Source: Aquificaceae bacterium
GTDB lineage: Bacteria; Aquificota; Aquificia; Aquificales; Aquificaceae
Length of the DNA: 64,000 nucleotides
Direction of reading: 5' to 3'
Assembly: GCA_026981975.1 (NCBI GenBank)
Contig: JALSHV010000002.1
Coordinates: forward strand, 1-64,000
Below are positions 5,243-37,925 of the stretch, piece by piece (the stretch's first letter is position 1; every line of letters begins with the position of its first letter). Position numbers and translations under genes: made by a program. The notes under the pieces are model-generated. The model was given only the letters and a program-made list of their open reading frames with translations. It was not told where the DNA came from and ran no database searches.

Positions 5243-5566
5243 TCAGGATCTTTTTGTAGGGTTAGGAGCAACTACAGCCTGAACTACGGAATCCTCAAGA
5301 GCTTTAAATCCGTGAGCCTCTTCTGGATCGTAGAATACGGAAGCACCTTCTTTTAAGGTTTCTTCTCTGTTTTCAGAACCTATGAAAAAAGAGAGCTTTC
5401 CCTTTAAGACCGTGATCACAACGGTAGAAGGAGATCTGTGGGGTTTTATTTCCTGACCTGCTTTTAGGTAAAACCTCATGACTCTTACATTTTTGTCGTT
5501 ATAAACCACTTCTCTTGTTGGGATTTGGGGATTGAAATTCTCTTCAAGAACTTTTATTTGTGCCAT
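5243..5566 (-). CDS. small cupin-domain protein
   Basis: Single-domain cupin (107 residues from the ATG at 5566). The first cupin motif is around KAGQEIKPHRSPSTVVITVLKG and the second around EEAHGFKALED. The metal ligands are reduced: one His in each motif (PHR and EAHG), so it may bind metal weakly or act as a sensor. It overlaps the end of the upstream membrane protein gene by 23 nt, so the two are co-expressed. I prefer the ATG at 5566 because AGGAGG-like GGAGG lies 9 nt upstream. A role with the NnrS-like neighbour is inferred only from adjacency. Confidence 0.7.
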   Translation of the reverse strand: MAQIKVLEENFNPQIPTREVVYNDKNVRVMRFYLKAGQEIKPHRSPSTVVITVLKGKLSFFIGSENREETLKEGASVFYDPEEAHGFKALEDSVVQAVVAPNPTKRS

Positions 5567-6719
5567 GCTCAACCTCCATTAATTTATTGAAAATACATAC
5601 ATAGGTTATCTTTAAAAAGTAACCTATTATGAACATGTAAGGGATAATTGAAAGAATCCTAAAAGGAGAGGACAGACTGTCCAAACTTACAAAAAGCAAA
5701 AAGGCAATGACTCCGCTTTGTAAGAACCGCGGTATTTCTTTTTCTTCTACGAGTTCATTTACAGTAGGTATTTTTACCTCCTTCAAAGTGGCGAATTTCC
5801 ACCCCCACACTATACGCGGTAAGAGATGAAGCATTCCTCCAAAAATAGTAAAGGCGGTAAAGCCGTAAATGAGTAGGTTAATGTGTATATCTACGGTGAA
5901 CGGAAGAACAACAGGATTACTTGAAGAGAAAACACCAAGAATAAGACCGAAGGGTAAAGGTATTAAAGCCACAAGGAGAACTTTTATTACATAAGGTAAG
6001 GGTGTTTGTATTTTCCTATTACTCACCACTTCGTAGAGAATATAAGCAAAGAACAGAAAAGCAGTAAATTCAATAAACGATGCAAGAGCTAAAAAGCTGT
6101 AATTCATTGAAATAAAAGACAACAAAAAGGTTAATGTTGAAATCTGCTTAATCCAAAAAAGTCTGTTCGCTTTCTTTATATTTAGAGTTTCCATAAGGAG
6201 CATTGGAATCCATGCCAACTCAACTCCGTAAACAGCGTTGAGCAAAGCTCCTACTGTTAGGGTATGAACTACAACCTGAAATGGTATAAGGTTGAAGTTA
6301 AAGTGAAGGAACATAAAAAGAGAAAACAGAAATAAGTAAAACACGGAGACTCCGAGGAACTTTACAGTTACCGGTGTCCAATTCCTTACGTTTCTGATAG
6401 TATGGATAAAAAACAGGGAAAGAGAAATGAGTATAAGAAGGGAAGAGATTTCAAATCTACTGAAATACAAAAGAATAAGACCTGCAATTGAAAAACCGAC
6501 AACCCAGTAGGTAATTTCCGGATTTGAGAGTTTTCTGTTTTGAGAATTGGGTATGATTTGATAAATAGCTCCCATTAAAGTGAATCCTATAAAACCGAAT
6601 ATCAGAGAAATGAAAAAAACCACTTTATCCGCAGGCAGGTGTCTTAAAAGCAGGGAAAAGCCTAAGTTAAACAGCGCCAATCCGAATAAGAAAGGGCTGA
6701 CTTTGGAAACAAAAAACAT
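5544..6719 (-). CDS. multi-TM NnrS-like / heme-copper-oxidase-subunit-I-like protein
   Basis: Integral membrane protein of 391 residues with about 10-12 TM helices and short loops. It has VVHTLTVGALLNAVYG near residue 148 and GGMLHLLPRIVWGW near residue 296, and shares this organisation with the protein at 36693-37925 in the denitrification island, so the two look like paralogues. NnrS-family proteins are heme- and copper-containing membrane proteins associated with NO metabolism; the resemblance here is architectural, not proven. It is preceded by a promoter with a 27-bp interrupted palindrome over the -10 region, and overlaps a cupin gene downstream. Confidence 0.5.
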   Translation of the reverse strand: MFFVSKVSPFLFGLALFNLGFSLLLRHLPADKVVFFISLIFGFIGFTLMGAIYQIIPNSQNRKLSNPEITYWVVGFSIAGLILLYFSRFEISSLLILISLSLFFIHTIRNVRNWTPVTVKFLGVSVFYLFLFSLFMFLHFNFNLIPFQVVVHTLTVGALLNAVYGVELAWIPMLLMETLNIKKANRLFWIKQISTLTFLLSFISMNYSFLALASFIEFTAFLFFAYILYEVVSNRKIQTPLPYVIKVLLVALIPLPFGLILGVFSSSNPVVLPFTVDIHINLLIYGFTAFTIFGGMLHLLPRIVWGWKFATLKEVKIPTVNELVEEKEIPRFLQSGVIAFLLFVSLDSLSSPFRILSIIPYMFIIGYFLKITYVCIFNKLMEVEHGTNKSS

Positions 6720-30850: not shown

Positions 30851-31594
30851 TCATGTTGTTCTCCTCAGAGATGCTATAAAATCTCTCAAAAAGATAAAGT
30901 AAAACATTGCACTCAGAGGAATAAGACCTCCTAAAATCATGGCTATAAAGGACCAATCTACAGTATAGGTTCCCGTTACAGGATCGTATCTGAAGCATCT
31001 TAAAAGAACACCCTTTATGGGATTCAAAGCCACCTTTCCCACTTTGGCTTTTGCTATTAGATTTGAGAGTTTCTCCGCATTGTAGGTAACACCTAACATA
31101 TATCCTGAAACCTTCAAACCCGGAGAAAGCACTATAAGAACATTAGAGTGTGCAAACATATCGGTGTCTTTATCGTAAAAGTATCTAAAATCTACCGCAC
31201 GACTCAGTATTTTCAGGTTTTCTCCTTTTGCTAAGACCAGTTTCCAGTTATCACCGATTATCTTACGCCGTTTACGGAACTCTAAAAGATCTTGTGGTGT
31301 ATCCCTCTCATCAAAATCTACAAGAACAACTCTAACGGGTTCTTTGAGAGCCTTACGAATTCCTTCTACTATCATAGGACAGGCAGATGCACAACGGGTA
31401 TATATAAAAGAGAGCAGAAGAACCTCCCCTCCTGACAGCTCACTCAATCTTATTTCTTGTCCCTTTTCGTCTATTAAGGTCACGTCGGGAACTTTTTTCC
31501 CCAGTATAAAATCCGCCTTCGGTGTTAAGTCTCTCTCTCGTGCCAAAGAAGTTAAAAGAAGGGAAAGAAGGAAGGGGACAAGGAGGGGAGCCAT
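30851..31594 (-). CDS. senC: SCO1/SenC copper chaperone-like protein
   Basis: Membrane-anchored thioredoxin-fold protein that delivers Cu to the CuA site of heme-copper enzymes. N-terminal signal-anchor; copper motif CASACP (C68, C72) and partner His in MFAHSNV (H149), the usual SCO ligand set. Unlike classical SCO1 it also has a C-terminal TM helix (FIAMILGGLIPLSAMFYFI). It follows norS immediately. norSY-senC is the order known for the sNOR-type operons in ammonia oxidisers, supporting assignment of the neighbouring enzyme to this class. Confidence 0.88.
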   Translation of the reverse strand: MAPLLVPFLLSLLLTSLARERDLTPKADFILGKKVPDVTLIDEKGQEIRLSELSGGEVLLLSFIYTRCASACPMIVEGIRKALKEPVRVVLVDFDERDTPQDLLEFRKRRKIIGDNWKLVLAKGENLKILSRAVDFRYFYDKDTDMFAHSNVLIVLSPGLKVSGYMLGVTYNAEKLSNLIAKAKVGKVALNPIKGVLLRCFRYDPVTGTYTVDWSFIAMILGGLIPLSAMFYFIFLRDFIASLRRTT

Positions 31595-31597
31595 GGG

Positions 31598-33295
31598 CTA
31601 TTTAACCTCCCACATCGCAGCCAGCCAGCCGTAGTTGAGAGCTACAAATATGATGAAAGCGGTTATAAACAGCAGCACTAATACAAAAGTTCCAGGTGCA
31701 GCAAATCCATTGTGTTCTCCTTCAGAAGGAGGTGGAGGTTCCGCTATGGGTATCTGAAGATCTTGAGGACCTCTGAAGGGTTGTCCGAAGAATACGGATA
31801 CAACCACCTGAAGTATCCATATAAGCGCTCCTATAACTGCGAGTATTCCACCCACACCGAACAGCGCCCAGAAAAAGTCCACAACTGGATTAAAGGTAAA
31901 AGTGAACGGTCCTCCGGAGAAGGTTATATCCCAGTGTCTTCTTGGTATACCAAACGCTCCGAGAATATAAAGGGAAACTGCCGTTATGGCTATACCTATA
32001 CCGAAAAGCCACGGAACAAACTTAGCTAATCCGTAGAAGGCGATTTTCTTTCTAAAGAGCAGAGGAATAAGGTAGTAGGTAACGCTCATAAAAGCAAGCA
32101 CTGTTCCGCCTACGACTGCTCCTTTAAAGTGTCCGGGAACGGAAAGAGTGTTATGAGCAATTATATTGGTTTGTTCCATACCGTTTACCACGCCTGTGAT
32201 ACCACCGATAAATCCGAAAATGATCATGGAAAGTATAAGTCCCGAGAACGCAGGGTTACCCCACGGTGCAGCTTTAAGCCACTCAAAGAGTCCTTTTGTG
32301 TAACCTCTTCTTCTCTGTGCAACCTCTATTGCTGAAGGAACAGCAAAGGCGTGTATCATAGAAGCGAAAACAGCTAAATACATAACGTAACTTGTATTCC
32401 ACACTTTCCAAACGGGGCTGACCGCAGGATCTACAAGGAGGTGGTGAGCGGAAGCTACGTTTATAGCAAGTATATATAGAACAAAGGCAAATCTGCTTAC
32501 TTTTTCATTTATAGAAGTTCCTCCTACTGTGAGAAAAGCCAAAAGATACCAAACAGCTACGTGTGCAGAAACGTTTATTTGCTGTGATGGGTGTCCCAAT
32601 CCCCACCATACAAGTCTATAAACAGCAGCGTCTATATCACTTATAATTCCCACGGACCACAGAAGGGTAGGAATGTATATTATTGCACCAGACGCTATTG
32701 TTACAACCGCTATTATTGCTGCAGCTAACAATCCGTAAACAAATAGCGGAAGTGACTGACCCGGATTTTCCCGTCGCCAGATCATAAGGTTTGCAAAGAA
32801 GACCATCACTATAACAAGCGCACCTACGGCGAATAAAATCATTCCCAAGTAAAAGAGCGGGTGAGCTTTTAAGGGTGCGTAAGAAGTCATTAAAACATCT
32901 GCATTTCCTGTAAAAATAGTGTAGTTAACCATAAGCCAACCTATTATGGCAAGAACACTTCCAAGCCAGCCTGCGGTAGGTGAAGATATTCGTGTATTGA
33001 GAAAAGCGGTGGAACCGAATACAAGCGCAGCCAGTTCAAAGAATATTATCCAAAAAACAAGACCGTTTAAACCGTGGAGTGTAAGAACTCTGTAATACCA
33101 ATCAACGGGAAGAATGTGAAACATCTGCCATCTTGTAAGAACTAATAAAAGAGCTGCTATTATAGCAATTAAGAAAGCCACTACAGCAACCACAGCATTA
33201 AGGCGTGCGATTTTTTCCGCCCTTAAATCAACTTTGAATCCTGTAACGTCGCAGGTTCTGAAGAACTTTTCCCAGTCATGAACAGCAACTGCCAT
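31598..33295 (-). CDS. norS: heme-copper NO reductase catalytic subunit (sNOR/B-family-like)
   Basis: 565 residues, ~12-13 TM helices, resembles ba3-type (B family) oxidases, e.g. LTLHGLNGLV (H74), GHPSQQ (H235), SAHHLLVDP (H284, H285, CuB ligands) and VPGHFKGA (H389, high-spin heme ligand). The residue aligned to the cross-linked Tyr of ba3 (HPIVY) is Q239. The residue aligned to the second low-spin-heme His (HFHLQ in ba3) is K391. Loss of the Tyr is expected in NO reductases. With norY (CuA), senC and nirS beside it, an NO reductase is most likely; an oxidase is less likely. Confidence 0.8.
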   Translation of the reverse strand: MAVAVHDWEKFFRTCDVTGFKVDLRAEKIARLNAVVAVVAFLIAIIAALLLVLTRWQMFHILPVDWYYRVLTLHGLNGLVFWIIFFELAALVFGSTAFLNTRISSPTAGWLGSVLAIIGWLMVNYTIFTGNADVLMTSYAPLKAHPLFYLGMILFAVGALVIVMVFFANLMIWRRENPGQSLPLFVYGLLAAAIIAVVTIASGAIIYIPTLLWSVGIISDIDAAVYRLVWWGLGHPSQQINVSAHVAVWYLLAFLTVGGTSINEKVSRFAFVLYILAINVASAHHLLVDPAVSPVWKVWNTSYVMYLAVFASMIHAFAVPSAIEVAQRRRGYTKGLFEWLKAAPWGNPAFSGLILSMIIFGFIGGITGVVNGMEQTNIIAHNTLSVPGHFKGAVVGGTVLAFMSVTYYLIPLLFRKKIAFYGLAKFVPWLFGIGIAITAVSLYILGAFGIPRRHWDITFSGGPFTFTFNPVVDFFWALFGVGGILAVIGALIWILQVVVSVFFGQPFRGPQDLQIPIAEPPPPSEGEHNGFAAPGTFVLVLLFITAFIIFVALNYGWLAAMWEVK

Positions 33296-33309: not shown

Positions 33310-33840
33310 TTACTCTTCAACTATGATCTTCCCTATCATCATGTGATGACCTATTCCGCAAAACTCGTTACATATAACCGCGAACTCTCCTGATGAAGTA
33401 GGTCTTATGGTTAGCACGTAGTCGTATTTTGGAAGAACCATAAAATTCATATTCACAGGCTGTATAGATATTCCATGCACAACATCAAGGGAAGAAATAT
33501 GAAGTCTATACTCCTCTCCCTTCTTTAGAATAAGGACTGGCTCCCATCTGAACTGCATTCCTATCATGAAAACATCACTGCCGGGTGGTGGTTTAACAAC
33601 GGGAATACCGTTTTCTTCCCCCACTTTATACTTTTCTATGAATGCTTTTGTAAGTTGGTAGAATTCTTCAGGAGTTGTTTTGTAAGTTACAAAGGAAGGA
33701 TTTTGTTTTGCGTAAACGTGCCATATTATCATCCAGAGAAATAAGAATATGGATACACAGAAAGCTATACCCATCCATATTTTCTCATCTCTGGCAATTT
33801 TCTGAAAGGGCCAGTCCTCACGCGGTGGTAAAATAGCCAT
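33310..33840 (-). CDS. norY: CuA-containing subunit II of the heme-copper NO reductase
   Basis: Membrane-anchored cupredoxin that feeds electrons from a soluble cytochrome or copper protein into the catalytic subunit. One N-terminal TM helix (~21-43), then a periplasmic domain. CuA ligands are intact: H122 in VVHGISIQ, and C157/C161/H165/M168 in CNEFCGIGHHMM. 176 residues, short like ba3 subunit II. It lies 14 nt upstream of norS and 5 nt after the small-subunit gene. Confidence 0.9.
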   Translation of the reverse strand: MAILPPREDWPFQKIARDEKIWMGIAFCVSIFLFLWMIIWHVYAKQNPSFVTYKTTPEEFYQLTKAFIEKYKVGEENGIPVVKPPPGSDVFMIGMQFRWEPVLILKKGEEYRLHISSLDVVHGISIQPVNMNFMVLPKYDYVLTIRPTSSGEFAVICNEFCGIGHHMMIGKIIVEE

Positions 33841-33845
33841 AGCTC

Positions 33846-34019
33846 TTACCTCCCTAACAGTGATTGCTTTATCTCATCGGGTATGGGCGGGAGCCATGCA
33901 AGCTCCATTAATCCCCAGATGAGATAAGAAGCGGCGTAAATGGTAACTCCCAGAAAAAGTAACAACATAAAATCGTCAAAAAAATCCTTAATGGGAGAAC
34001 TTCTTTTTTCCTCGCTCAT
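33846..34019 (-). CDS. small single-TM subunit of the heme-copper complex
   Basis: 58 residues from the ATG at 34019, which has GGAGGTG 5 nt upstream; a GTG three codons earlier is less likely. One TM helix (LLLFLGVTIYAASYLIWGLMEL) with a short charged N-terminus and proline-rich WLPPIPDEI tail. It resembles the 34-60-residue single-helix subunit IIa of ba3 oxidases in size and position. First gene of the norY-norS-senC operon. Confidence 0.75.
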   Translation of the reverse strand: MSEEKRSSPIKDFFDDFMLLLFLGVTIYAASYLIWGLMELAWLPPIPDEIKQSLLGR

Positions 34020-34217: not shown

Positions 34218-34232
34218 ATGGAGGATAGGAAA

Positions 34233-36182
34233 ATGGAACTTGTAAGTATAAGCCCCACCTATAAACTTATGCAGAGGATAGCTTATTTTTTTAGCAAAAT
34301 TTACTCTTCTAAGCTTAATCCTATTTACTACTTAGGAGCTATTACTATTTTCCTACTGATAATAGACGTCATATCAGGGATATACTTGTTTATCTTCTAC
34401 AACGTAGATCCGAAGCACGCTTACGATTCCGTAGAAGCTATATCCTCTTCCTTCTTAGGAAATTTAATGAGAGGCTTACACCGTTACTCTTCTGATGGTC
34501 TTATTCTCTTTGCAATTCTTCATATGCTCCACATGATATTCACGGATAGATTTCGTATGTTCAGATGGGTTGCTTGGGTTTCCGGTGTAGGAACTCTGTT
34601 GATTTTCATAATCATAGGACTTTCGGGATACCTTTTAGTGTGGGATGAAAGAGCGCAACTTACAGGACTTTTAACTGCTAAGTTCTTCAGTGTTATTCCC
34701 GTTTTCGGGCATGCACTTATGAGTGCCTTTTTAGGAACAGATCTACAAAACTTAGGCGGACTTTTCCGCATACTTCTCTTTGGTCATATAGCGGTTACCA
34801 TTCTTTTGGTATTCACACTGTGGATTCACGTAATGAGAATTTCAAGACCTCGTCTATTTCCGCCGAAATACCTTATGATACTTCTGACAGCTTATTTAAC
34901 TGTTATAGCTGTTGTTTTTCCTGCAAAAAGTGATCCTCCAGCGGATCTCGGGAAAATTCCTTTCGGAATGAGTATAGACTGGTTTTACCTTATGGGTTTT
35001 CCCTTTTTTAAAGTGTTCTCCCTACCAGTAAACTGGGCTATATTCATAGGTTTCTTCGGCTTACTTACAGTTTTTCCGTGGCTTATAAAGGGTAGAAGAA
35101 ACCCTCCCGCTGAGGTTTTGGAAGATAAGTGTGAAGGTTGTCAACAGTGTTTTATAGACTGCCCTTATGAAGCCATATATATGAAGCGAACAGGAAAGGA
35201 TAAAGAAAAGGCTTTTGTCATTGCAAATAAATGTGCTGGTTGTGGTATATGCATAGGTTCTTGTAATTACTTTGCCAACAGAATAGATACCGTTCCCTAT
35301 GAGAAGATATTGGAGGAAGTATCTCAAAGCTCTCCTGAAATTCTCGTTTTTAGATGCCCTTTTAGTGCGAAAGTTGAAGAGGGAAAAGATCTAAAAGTTA
35401 TAACCCTTCCTTGCATAGGAGCTGTGAATACACTGTTTATGAAAGATTTTCTTAAATACGCAAAAGGAGTTCTTTTGGTATCCTGTGACGGACCTGACTG
35501 CTATTTCAGAGAAGGAGTTCAATGGACAGAAGAGAGATATTTAAGGGAAAGAAGACCGAAACTGTTAAAATCCTTAGAGGGTGAAAGAATATGGATATTA
35601 GAAACTCCCTATGCAAAGGATATAAGTAGAGAACTCACCTCTTTAAGAGAATTTTTGAAAGAAAAGAAAACGGGAAGAGATGTGAGGATTTTATCAGCTA
35701 ACAAAACTAACCATATCTTGGCTTCTTTGATCTTATTTATACCTTTTTTGAGTTTTTATCCTCTTACTACCCACAGAATGGATTTCTATCCTAAGGATAA
35801 AGCAATTGCGGTTCTTACTTTTAAATACAGATCCTCTCCAGTCCGAAAAGCTGAAACTGTTTACAGTAAGCTCAAACATATGCAAGCAATACAGAACATA
35901 GCGGTGGAGAGATCTCCCATAGAGGTATCTTTTATAGTAAACGGTAAAGAAATACTGAAAAAGAAATACAATCCAAGAGGCTTGAGAAAGGACTCTTCTA
36001 TATACGTCTATGAAGAGTTTATGCTTAAACCCGGCACTTACAGTTTTAAACTTGAAGTAAGGGAATTAGCGGGTCCTAAGAGGAAACACACCTACAAACT
36101 TGCTAAGAAGCTGAAACCTTCCACCAGTTTGGCTATAACTTACGATGAATCAAAGGGATTTTTTACTCTAGGAGGAAAGTGA
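34233..36182 (+). CDS. cytochrome b - 2[4Fe-4S] ferredoxin - MvhD-like fusion protein
   Basis: 649-residue fusion. N-terminal cytochrome b with two bis-His hemes (H83/H97 and H185/H199, each 14 apart) and a later b6f-subunit-IV-like segment in which the PEWY Qo motif is replaced by SIDW (W250). Then two ferredoxin clusters: CEGCQQCFIDCP (C300-C310) and CAGCGICIGSC (C334-C344). Then an MvhD/FlpD-like [2Fe-2S] domain with C375, C394, C418 and C423 and the ...CDGPDCYFREG core. Finally a TM segment and a beta-rich tail. The start at 34233 follows GGAGG at 34220. It may link quinol to low-potential Fe-S partners. No Rieske protein nearby. Partner unknown. Confidence 0.75.
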   Translation: MELVSISPTYKLMQRIAYFFSKIYSSKLNPIYYLGAITIFLLIIDVISGIYLFIFYNVDPKHAYDSVEAISSSFLGNLMRGLHRYSSDGLILFAILHMLHMIFTDRFRMFRWVAWVSGVGTLLIFIIIGLSGYLLVWDERAQLTGLLTAKFFSVIPVFGHALMSAFLGTDLQNLGGLFRILLFGHIAVTILLVFTLWIHVMRISRPRLFPPKYLMILLTAYLTVIAVVFPAKSDPPADLGKIPFGMSIDWFYLMGFPFFKVFSLPVNWAIFIGFFGLLTVFPWLIKGRRNPPAEVLEDKCEGCQQCFIDCPYEAIYMKRTGKDKEKAFVIANKCAGCGICIGSCNYFANRIDTVPYEKILEEVSQSSPEILVFRCPFSAKVEEGKDLKVITLPCIGAVNTLFMKDFLKYAKGVLLVSCDGPDCYFREGVQWTEERYLRERRPKLLKSLEGERIWILETPYAKDISRELTSLREFLKEKKTGRDVRILSANKTNHILASLILFIPFLSFYPLTTHRMDFYPKDKAIAVLTFKYRSSPVRKAETVYSKLKHMQAIQNIAVERSPIEVSFIVNGKEILKKKYNPRGLRKDSSIYVYEEFMLKPGTYSFKLEVRELAGPKRKHTYKLAKKLKPSTSLAITYDESKGFFTLGGK

Positions 36183-36261: not shown

Positions 36262-36696
36262 ATGAGCATAGTTCAGTATCTTACGGAAGAACATAGGAGG
36301 TGTGATGAGGTATATGCTCAAGCAGAGCAGGCAGTTTTAGACGAAGATTGGGACAGAGCCAACCGTCTTTTCAAAGAGTTTAAAGAGAAAACCCTTCTAC
36401 ACTTCCGAAAAGAGGAAGATATACTTTTTCCGGAATTTGAGGAGAAAACGGGTATAGTAATGGGACCCACACAGGTTATGAGACATGAACACGCTCAGGC
36501 TAAGGATCTTTTGGAAAAGTTAGAAAAAGCCTTAGAGACAAAGAATAAAGAGGAATTTCTATCAGCGGGTGAATCTTTAATGATACTTATCCAACAGCAC
36601 AATATGAAAGAAGAACAAATCCTTTATCCTATGTCGGATCAACACCTTTCTTCGGAGGAGATGGTGGAGAAGATGTCAGCTCTCGGAGAAGTATGA
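36262..36696 (+). CDS. hemerythrin/HHE-domain protein
   Basis: 144-residue four-helix bundle with the HHE diiron ligands: EEHRR (H11), LLHFRKEEDILFP (H47, E51), RHEHAQ (H74-H76 region) and QQHNMKEEQ (H, E). Hemerythrin-like proteins bind O2 or NO or sense them, and the RIC/YtfE type repairs NO-damaged iron-sulfur clusters. The gene is the second of the cytochrome b operon, with AGGAGG before the ATG, next to NnrS-like and NsrR-like genes, consistent with NO handling. Confidence 0.88.
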   Translation: MSIVQYLTEEHRRCDEVYAQAEQAVLDEDWDRANRLFKEFKEKTLLHFRKEEDILFPEFEEKTGIVMGPTQVMRHEHAQAKDLLEKLEKALETKNKEEFLSAGESLMILIQQHNMKEEQILYPMSDQHLSSEEMVEKMSALGEV

Positions 36697-37925
36697 TACC
36701 CCGCGGGCTTTCTCTTCTTCAAGCTCCCCCTTTTAGTGTAATAGCTCGCTTTTTTATAACCTTTCCTCTTTTCGGGGTGCTAAGTTCTATTTTGGCTTTT
36801 TCTTATTTGATTAAAGAACCCTTCAATCTACCTGCACTGGTTCATACTTTTACTCTCGGGCTTATGGCTTCCGTTATGTTAGGAGCCCTTTTCCAGATGT
36901 TACCCGTTGTAGCGGGAGCTGTTATAGAAAACCCTCTTCCCAAAGCGGAAATTTCCCATTTGAGCTTAGTATTGGGAACTTTATTGCTTATCTTCGGATT
37001 TCTTTCAGGTCAATCCTTGGCTCTTTGGGGATCTTTACTTCTGTTAGCAGGAGGACTGTATTTCACTGCATTTCTTATGTTTTTTAAACTTATAAAGTTA
37101 AAAAGCTACACCCCTACTTCTAAAGGAATGAAGTTTGCTCTTGGTCTGTTCACTGTAGGAATATCTTGCGGTGTTTTGATGGTTCTTTCGTTACTTGGGA
37201 CAGTTAATCTAAATTACGGTTTTTTTCTCAATGCTCATATTTCTTTTCTCCTCTTCGGCTGGGTATGCCTTCTTATAGCTTCTGTTGCTTTTCAAGTTAT
37301 AGAGATGTTTTTTGTAACACCCCCTTATCCTAAAAATTTTTCTAACCTATTTCCCCTTGCGACGACTTTTTTTGTGCTGTTGAATACTTTTTTTGAAAGC
37401 TTCTTTACAAAGATACTTATTTCCCTTTTGTTTTTAAGCTTTGCAGTATTGACAATTGAGCGACTATTAAAAAGGCGAAGAAAGATTCCCGATCCTCTTA
37501 TAAGTTTGTGGTATTTAGGAATGGGATTTCTTTTAATGGCTATGATTTTATATCCTTTTACAGATAAATACGAGATATTTTTACTTTTCCTACTTTTATT
37601 CGGAAACTTTGCTCTGAGTGTTATTATGGCTATGAGTTACAGAATAATCCCTTTCCTTGTATGGTTTCACTTGTCAGCGGAAGGATCGGAAGCTCCTACT
37701 ATGTATGAAATAATAAAGCCTTCTTGGATATGGTTTAACTACAGAGTTCATCTGATCGCCAGCTTCTTGTCCGTTATCTCCTTTATACTTGAATACAAGA
37801 TATTATGGTTATTTGCACTGGCTTTTTACACCTTTTCATTCCTTCTGCTGTTTACAGGATTACTAAAGGGTTGTCTTAAATACTTTAAGAAGCCGCATCG
37901 GCAAAGTGTCTCTCTTCAACGCTGA
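36693..37925 (+). CDS. NnrS-like multi-TM protein (paralogue of 5544-6719)
   Basis: 410 residues with about 12 TM helices. VHTFTLGLMASVMLGALFQM near residue 50 and MAMSYRIIPFLVWFHL near residue 310 correspond to the motifs of the 391-residue protein at 5544-6719. This class has heme-copper-like His positions but is not a proven oxidase. It overlaps the hemerythrin gene by 4 nt and its 3' end overlaps the oppositely oriented Rrf2 gene by 41 nt. Adjacent to the NO genes, so a function in NO or metal handling is inferred. Confidence 0.55.
   Translation: MIPRGLSLLQAPPFSVIARFFITFPLFGVLSSILAFSYLIKEPFNLPALVHTFTLGLMASVMLGALFQMLPVVAGAVIENPLPKAEISHLSLVLGTLLLIFGFLSGQSLALWGSLLLLAGGLYFTAFLMFFKLIKLKSYTPTSKGMKFALGLFTVGISCGVLMVLSLLGTVNLNYGFFLNAHISFLLFGWVCLLIASVAFQVIEMFFVTPPYPKNFSNLFPLATTFFVLLNTFFESFFTKILISLLFLSFAVLTIERLLKRRRKIPDPLISLWYLGMGFLLMAMILYPFTDKYEIFLLFLLLFGNFALSVIMAMSYRIIPFLVWFHLSAEGSEAPTMYEIIKPSWIWFNYRVHLIASFLSVISFILEYKILWLFALAFYTFSFLLLFTGLLKGCLKYFKKPHRQSVSLQR

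Follow-up and report, generated by a model that had tools for sequence, protein, structure and literature searches.

A cytochrome b-ferredoxin-MvhD fusion paired with eNOR in Aquificota points to an undescribed partner of this nitric oxide reductase

What is a cytochrome b joined to iron-sulphur domains doing beside a nitric oxide reductase, and with which protein does it work? The question is raised by a stretch of 64,000 nucleotides (hereafter the window; contig JALSHV010000002.1) from an Aquificaceae bacterium, in which a first-pass annotation had described a single 649-residue polypeptide carrying a di-heme cytochrome b with bis-His pairs 14 apart, two [4Fe-4S] motifs, four MvhD-like cysteines and, after an extra transmembrane (TM) helix, a C-terminal beta-rich domain. 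All of these elements were recovered in the present analysis, and they are arranged as follows in the coordinates of the window.

34233..36182, plus strand: cytochrome b-ferredoxin-MvhD-beta-domain fusion, 649 aa plus stop; in-frame alternative ATG at 34218
34293..34847, plus strand: b6-type cytochrome b core, residues 21-205, helices A-D (Pfam PF00033; PDB cytochrome b6; conservation)
34854..35090, plus strand: helix E, p-side ef loop (xDWFY, residues 248-252) and helix F (alignment with canonical cytochrome b; topology charges)
35109..35273, plus strand: 2x[4Fe-4S] ferredoxin domain, residues 293-347 (Pfam Fer4_7 and others; 8/8 Cys invariant)
35340..35612, plus strand: MvhD/FlpD [2Fe-2S] domain, residues about 370-460 (Pfam PF02662; PDB MvhD chains)
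35709..35768, plus strand: seventh TM helix, about residues 493-512, at the helix G position (hydropathy)
35760..36179, plus strand: predicted periplasmic beta-sandwich domain (AF2 pLDDT 82.6; no cofactor motif)

The open reading frame is uninterrupted, with 649 codons from ATG 34233 and 654 from ATG 34218. A frameshift or an assembly error joining separate genes had been named as what would undo the first description; a search of 136 Aquificota genomes returned full-length orthologs 55-75% identical to the window protein, and their occurrence in independent genomes excludes such a join. Nothing was found in favour of an artefact, the probability of which we regard as practically nil.

Pfam searches with the fusion return Cytochrome_B (3.6e-18), the Fer4 families (1e-6) and FlpD/MvhD (1.2e-6), the PF02662 profile scoring 29 bits and thus above its cut-off of 22.3, and the top PDB sequence relatives are cytochrome b6 (2.5e-16) and, for the domain searched alone, MvhD chains (5.8e-4). 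The fused MvhD/FlpD domain is the sole FlpD match across the whole genome to which the window belongs. The cytochrome b core contains the ligands H83/H97 and H185/H199, with a spacing of 14 within each pair, and the glycines G35, G49, G118 and G132; the ferredoxin domain carries CxxCxxCxxxC twice, at 300-310 and 334-344, and the cysteines of the MvhD domain are C375, C394, C418 and C423. The four histidines, the eight ferredoxin cysteines and the four MvhD cysteines are invariant in 21 aligned full-length Aquificaceae-type sequences, as are D249-W250-F251-Y252 in the same set.

The hydropathy profile displays helices A-D, E and F and then one extra TM segment at 493-514. The density of Lys/Arg is 0.27-0.33 in the predicted cytoplasmic loops and 0.12 in the N-terminal segment, falling to 0.06-0.08 in the predicted periplasmic loops, and this positive-inside pattern places both the N-terminus and the Fe-S module on the cytoplasmic side, with the C-terminal domain on the other side of the membrane. 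Structure prediction had been suggested as a check. The AF2 model of the full fusion, built with nine sequences, has cytochrome b6 as its best PDB match and a pLDDT of 51.7, and the poor confidence of the full chain and of its membrane part puts heme-to-cluster distances beyond the reach of the model. Modelled alone, the C-terminal domain is fairly confident and comprises ten strands. These ~140 residues have no Pfam match, no PDB-sequence relative and no confident PDB fold match, and no conserved periplasmic Cys is found; H549/M550 is the only invariant pair in this domain in Aquificaceae, being kept only in part in the alphaproteobacterium Defluviimonas.

Alignment with the canonical cytochrome b of Aquificota sets PEWY against I248-D249-W250-F251 of the fusion. 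The degenerate Qo motif had been read as SIDW; PEWY is indeed replaced, with the register one residue off, and the motif is therefore IDWF or, more generally, xDWF, in which D, W and F are invariant and the Pro and Tyr of PEWY/PDWY are replaced. Compared with the canonical protein, the fusion is missing the de loop, about 30 residues that form part of the n-side Qi site, and its ferredoxin domain starts about 15 residues past helix F, where helices G/H would be. Tyr33 occupies the position of the b6f heme-cn Cys. No Rieske protein or cytochrome c1/f was recognised among the neighbour genes of the fusion loci that were read. The earlier remark that no Rieske gene lies nearby is accordingly correct within the window, but a standard bc1 (Rieske, PEWY cytochrome b and cytochrome c1) is encoded on another contig of the same genome, and thus the fusion does not replace complex III.

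The genes around the fusion that bear on its role are the following.

33846..34019, minus strand: putative small single-TM eNOR subunit, 57 aa from ATG (matching motif upstream of eNOR-II elsewhere)
33310..33840, minus strand: eNOR subunit II, CuA motif CNEFCGIGHHM (sequence; profile searches)
31598..33295, minus strand: eNOR subunit I, heme-copper, HPSQQ (profile search; alignment)
30851..31594, minus strand: SCO1-like CuA assembly protein (profile search; SCO also in the Defluviimonas cluster)
36262..36696, plus strand: hemerythrin-domain protein (adjoins the fusion in most loci of genus g1 and in Defluviimonas)

The replacement of the catalytic cross-linked Tyr by Gln is diagnostic of eNOR (PMC8756737), and the alignment of subunit I demonstrates this Gln for Tyr in HPSQQ. 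Together with the CuA motif, the substitution identifies subunits I and II as eNOR, for which NO reductase activity is predicted. The small TM protein at 33846-34019 (minus strand) begins MSEEKRSSPIKDFFDDFMLLLFLGVTIYAASYLIWGLMELAWLPP and was absent from the gene listing of the first-pass annotation; a matching motif precedes eNOR-II in Defluviimonas, Thermomicrobium and Thermus as well, which suggests a third, conserved subunit of eNOR. NirS is also encoded on the divergent eNOR side of the fusion in the window, and a Rrf2-family regulator neighbours the fusion in g1. No FNR/DNR-type box is conserved in the divergent promoter region, and no cytoplasmic redox partner is encoded near the fusion. 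The window also contains multi-TM proteins at 36693-37925 (410 aa) and 5544-6719 (391 aa), the former having no Pfam/NCBIfam match and lying next to hemerythrin in most loci of g1.

The link to a CuA NO reductase, first noticed in this one window, is borne out by the genomes of the phylum. The fusion occurs, as full-length or contig-cut copies, in 21 of the 136 Aquificota genomes, the window's own included, and precisely these 21 also carry eNOR subunit I (at least 71% identity); the two are placed head-to-head in 20/20 loci where the contig reaches. The nominal p of this association is 4e-25, a value overstated by the close linkage and the shared ancestry; even so, fusion and eNOR have been lost together within g1, g3 and g6. 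Some co-loss would follow from tight gene linkage by itself. The C-terminal beta domain is confined to the fusion in a search of the phylum. The proposed role in or around denitrification holds in so far as the fusion is tied to eNOR, but a tie to denitrification generally was rejected, since NirS occurs in 33 genomes without the fusion (three fusion genomes having no NirS) and NosZ in 24 (seven fusion genomes having no NosZ). Hemerythrin as an obligate partner was equally rejected: 24 genomes have hemerythrin only and two have the fusion only, and the two genes are not adjacent in g3 and g6.

In g3 and g6 the fusion also converges on a nosZ-containing cluster, the other nos genes being named by eye. 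In the same groups an extra heme-copper-like paralog of ~430 aa, about 23-30% similar to subunit I and absent from the window cluster, is located between eNOR subunit I and SCO (L055:5595-6893, with equivalents in L056-L060). A divergent NosZ-like protein, about 38% to the NosZ of genome G028, is encoded in the window genome (G000:C14:39476-41248) and in G008 (L061:1875-3653), where it stands in the place of the usual NosZ of their relatives.

The survey of genome neighbourhoods for further fusions, also suggested at the outset, yielded in addition to the 21 Aquificota genomes a homolog on a plasmid of Defluviimonas (Alphaproteobacteria). The plasmid set consists of the small subunit, subunit II, eNOR subunit I, CyoE, SCO, a cytochrome b-ferredoxin-FlpD protein, a TM-plus-beta protein and hemerythrin. 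The cytochrome b-ferredoxin-FlpD protein has 526 aa and is 32% identical to the fusion over 515 residues, keeping all the invariant ligand and motif positions except Y252. The 172-aa TM-plus-beta protein (P0003) is homologous to fusion residues 496-646 (E 2e-11), so that the seventh TM helix of the fusion is part of a separate protein in Defluviimonas. A beta domain that is encoded by a separate gene there and fused in Aquificota argues that this domain belongs to the same machine. On the plasmids of Thermus, Thermomicrobium and Haloarcula that were examined, eNOR stands without a fusion-like neighbour, and thus the fusion marks a subset of eNOR and is not generally needed. Public plasmid records label eNOR subunit I as 'cbb3-type cytochrome c oxidase subunit I' (L077:8519-10249; L082:9983-11665; L083:9980-11710), and the mislabelled proteins have Gln replacing the catalytic Tyr. 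One archaeal occurrence, on a Candidatus Bathyarchaeota MAG contig (L009/G136) and the sole match in a sample of 300 genomes of its phylum, was set aside, since the gene content of the contig nearly matches that of the Aquificaceae genome G038 and the contig is probably mis-binned. The viral contigs searched contain no relatives of the fusion.

The domains, the conserved ligands, the charge-based topology, the loss of the Qi loop, the retention of xDWF and the pairing with eNOR in Aquificota are established at the level of sequence, and the strict pairing together with the recurrence in an unrelated bacterium points to an undescribed eNOR partner. We propose, giving the proposal an even chance, that the fusion is the dedicated partner of one eNOR group and acts as a cytochrome b wire without Rieske, running from quinone at the p-side to an Fe-S partner in the cytoplasm. 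Hemes bL and bH would connect a quinone site at the p-face with two [4Fe-4S] clusters and one [2Fe-2S] cluster in the cytoplasm, both the loading of these cofactors and the use of quinone being predicted. The Fe-S module occupies the place of the missing n-side Qi loop, and the MvhD domain may dock a putative soluble redox partner. The beta domain on the periplasmic side probably serves for docking or as a scaffold towards eNOR, which it may contact. Most likely quinol would be oxidised on the p-side with the electrons moving inward during NO respiration, and a reversal is possible. We favour p-side oxidation for two reasons: the Qo motif retains its acidic residue, and energy is usually conserved by membrane b-wires laid out in this way, e.g. 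NarI. The transfer between quinol and low-potential Fe-S partners that had been suggested from the window fits this anatomy, with xDWF on the p-side and the Qi loop replaced, the low potential being a putative trait of those partners.

The main rival to the redox-wire reading, which we consider somewhat unlikely, is a maturation or activation reductase, an analogue of CcoG/FixG or NosR that would send electrons outward in order to build or reactivate eNOR, either by reducing copper for the insertion of CuA through SCO or at a heme/CuB site. The cluster contains SCO in both phyla and CyoE, a heme o synthase, in Defluviimonas; a CuA eNOR should get its electrons from the cytochrome c of the bc1 already present; the layout of cytoplasmic ferredoxin, TM and periplasmic beta domain recalls that of CcoG; and the lack of the fusion beside some eNOR loci fits an auxiliary role. 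However, no FixG_C or NosR-type domain matches the fusion in Pfam up to E = 10, the periplasmic side offers H549/M550 in place of any conserved Cys, and a di-heme b core with a p-side quinone motif exceeds the needs of such a role. The flow could also run in the opposite direction along the wire, from reduced cytoplasmic ferredoxin or a flavoprotein by way of MvhD, ferredoxin, bH and bL either to quinone or straight to eNOR, and this we judge unlikely. The ferredoxin-MvhD module resembles the C-terminus of HdrA2, an electron-input module, and a supply of electrons to eNOR is the simplest account of the link between the two; yet such a flow would dissipate the proton-motive force, and no donor enzyme lies nearby, the genome having a shorter HdrA-like protein and no full-length HdrA2.

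A bolder and improbable variant is a new type of quinone-based electron bifurcation, in which quinol at the p-side xDWF would give one electron to a non-Rieske high-potential acceptor, such as the CuA of eNOR, and send the second by way of bL and bH to the cytoplasmic Fe-S clusters and MvhD instead of returning it to quinone. A machine of this kind would be expected to have Fe-S domains where the Qi site has been lost, as is the case here, and through it NO reduction would drive reducing power inward to the cytoplasm. That the fusion is a general protein against NO or nitrosative stress, merely travelling with eNOR and perhaps serving hemerythrin, appears very unlikely: hemerythrin and the Rrf2-family regulator are its neighbours in g1 and hemerythrin is adjacent in Defluviimonas, but the distribution of hemerythrin among the 136 genomes and its distance from the fusion in g3 and g6 speak against it.

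eNOR is an NO reductase for which proton pumping has been proposed, and it often carries a mistaken annotation as a cytochrome oxidase. As its dedicated partner, the fusion would add an undescribed component to the NO respiration of thermophilic Aquificota and of at least one alphaproteobacterium, and it offers a testable case of a cytochrome b working without Rieske. It may further serve as a marker for a subset of eNOR and is a candidate for linking denitrification to the reducing power of the cytoplasm. No published account of the fusion was found in the literature searched, the novelty being provisional since this search is incomplete for eNOR.

Among known systems, the cytochrome b of bc1/b6f shares with the fusion the four-helix di-heme core, the bis-His spacing, the glycines and the succession of helix E, acidic/W motif and helix F. 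The fusion differs in that its cluster has no Rieske or cytochrome c1/f, in that it has neither the Qi de loop nor the heme cn Cys, and in the Fe-S domains that replace helices G/H. The best NCBIfam match of the cytochrome b part is ExtP (NF040969; 4e-30), a b-type cytochrome of selenite/tellurite reduction operons, at 105 bits against a cut-off of 290 and with a model that spans the cytochrome b part only. HdrA2-MvhD (NF040770) has the same order of ferredoxin and then MvhD, fusion residues 293-440 corresponding to model positions 572-731, whereas the fusion has no FAD-binding HdrA core and is joined to a membrane cytochrome b instead. In CcoG/FixG and NosR, too, ferredoxin clusters in the cytoplasm are combined with TM helices and a periplasmic domain, close to a respiratory enzyme that contains Cu; these proteins are not known to carry b hemes. 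In the comparisons made here bc1/b6f, HdrA2 and CcoG each fail in at least one defining feature. QmoABC resembles the fusion in that MvhD/Hdr modules are joined to quinone by a membrane anchor, but Qmo uses a NarI-type cytochrome b. The MvhD/Hdr membrane chain proposed in Sporomusa, the membrane-integral partner of which is unidentified, shares this idea (PMC9430772).
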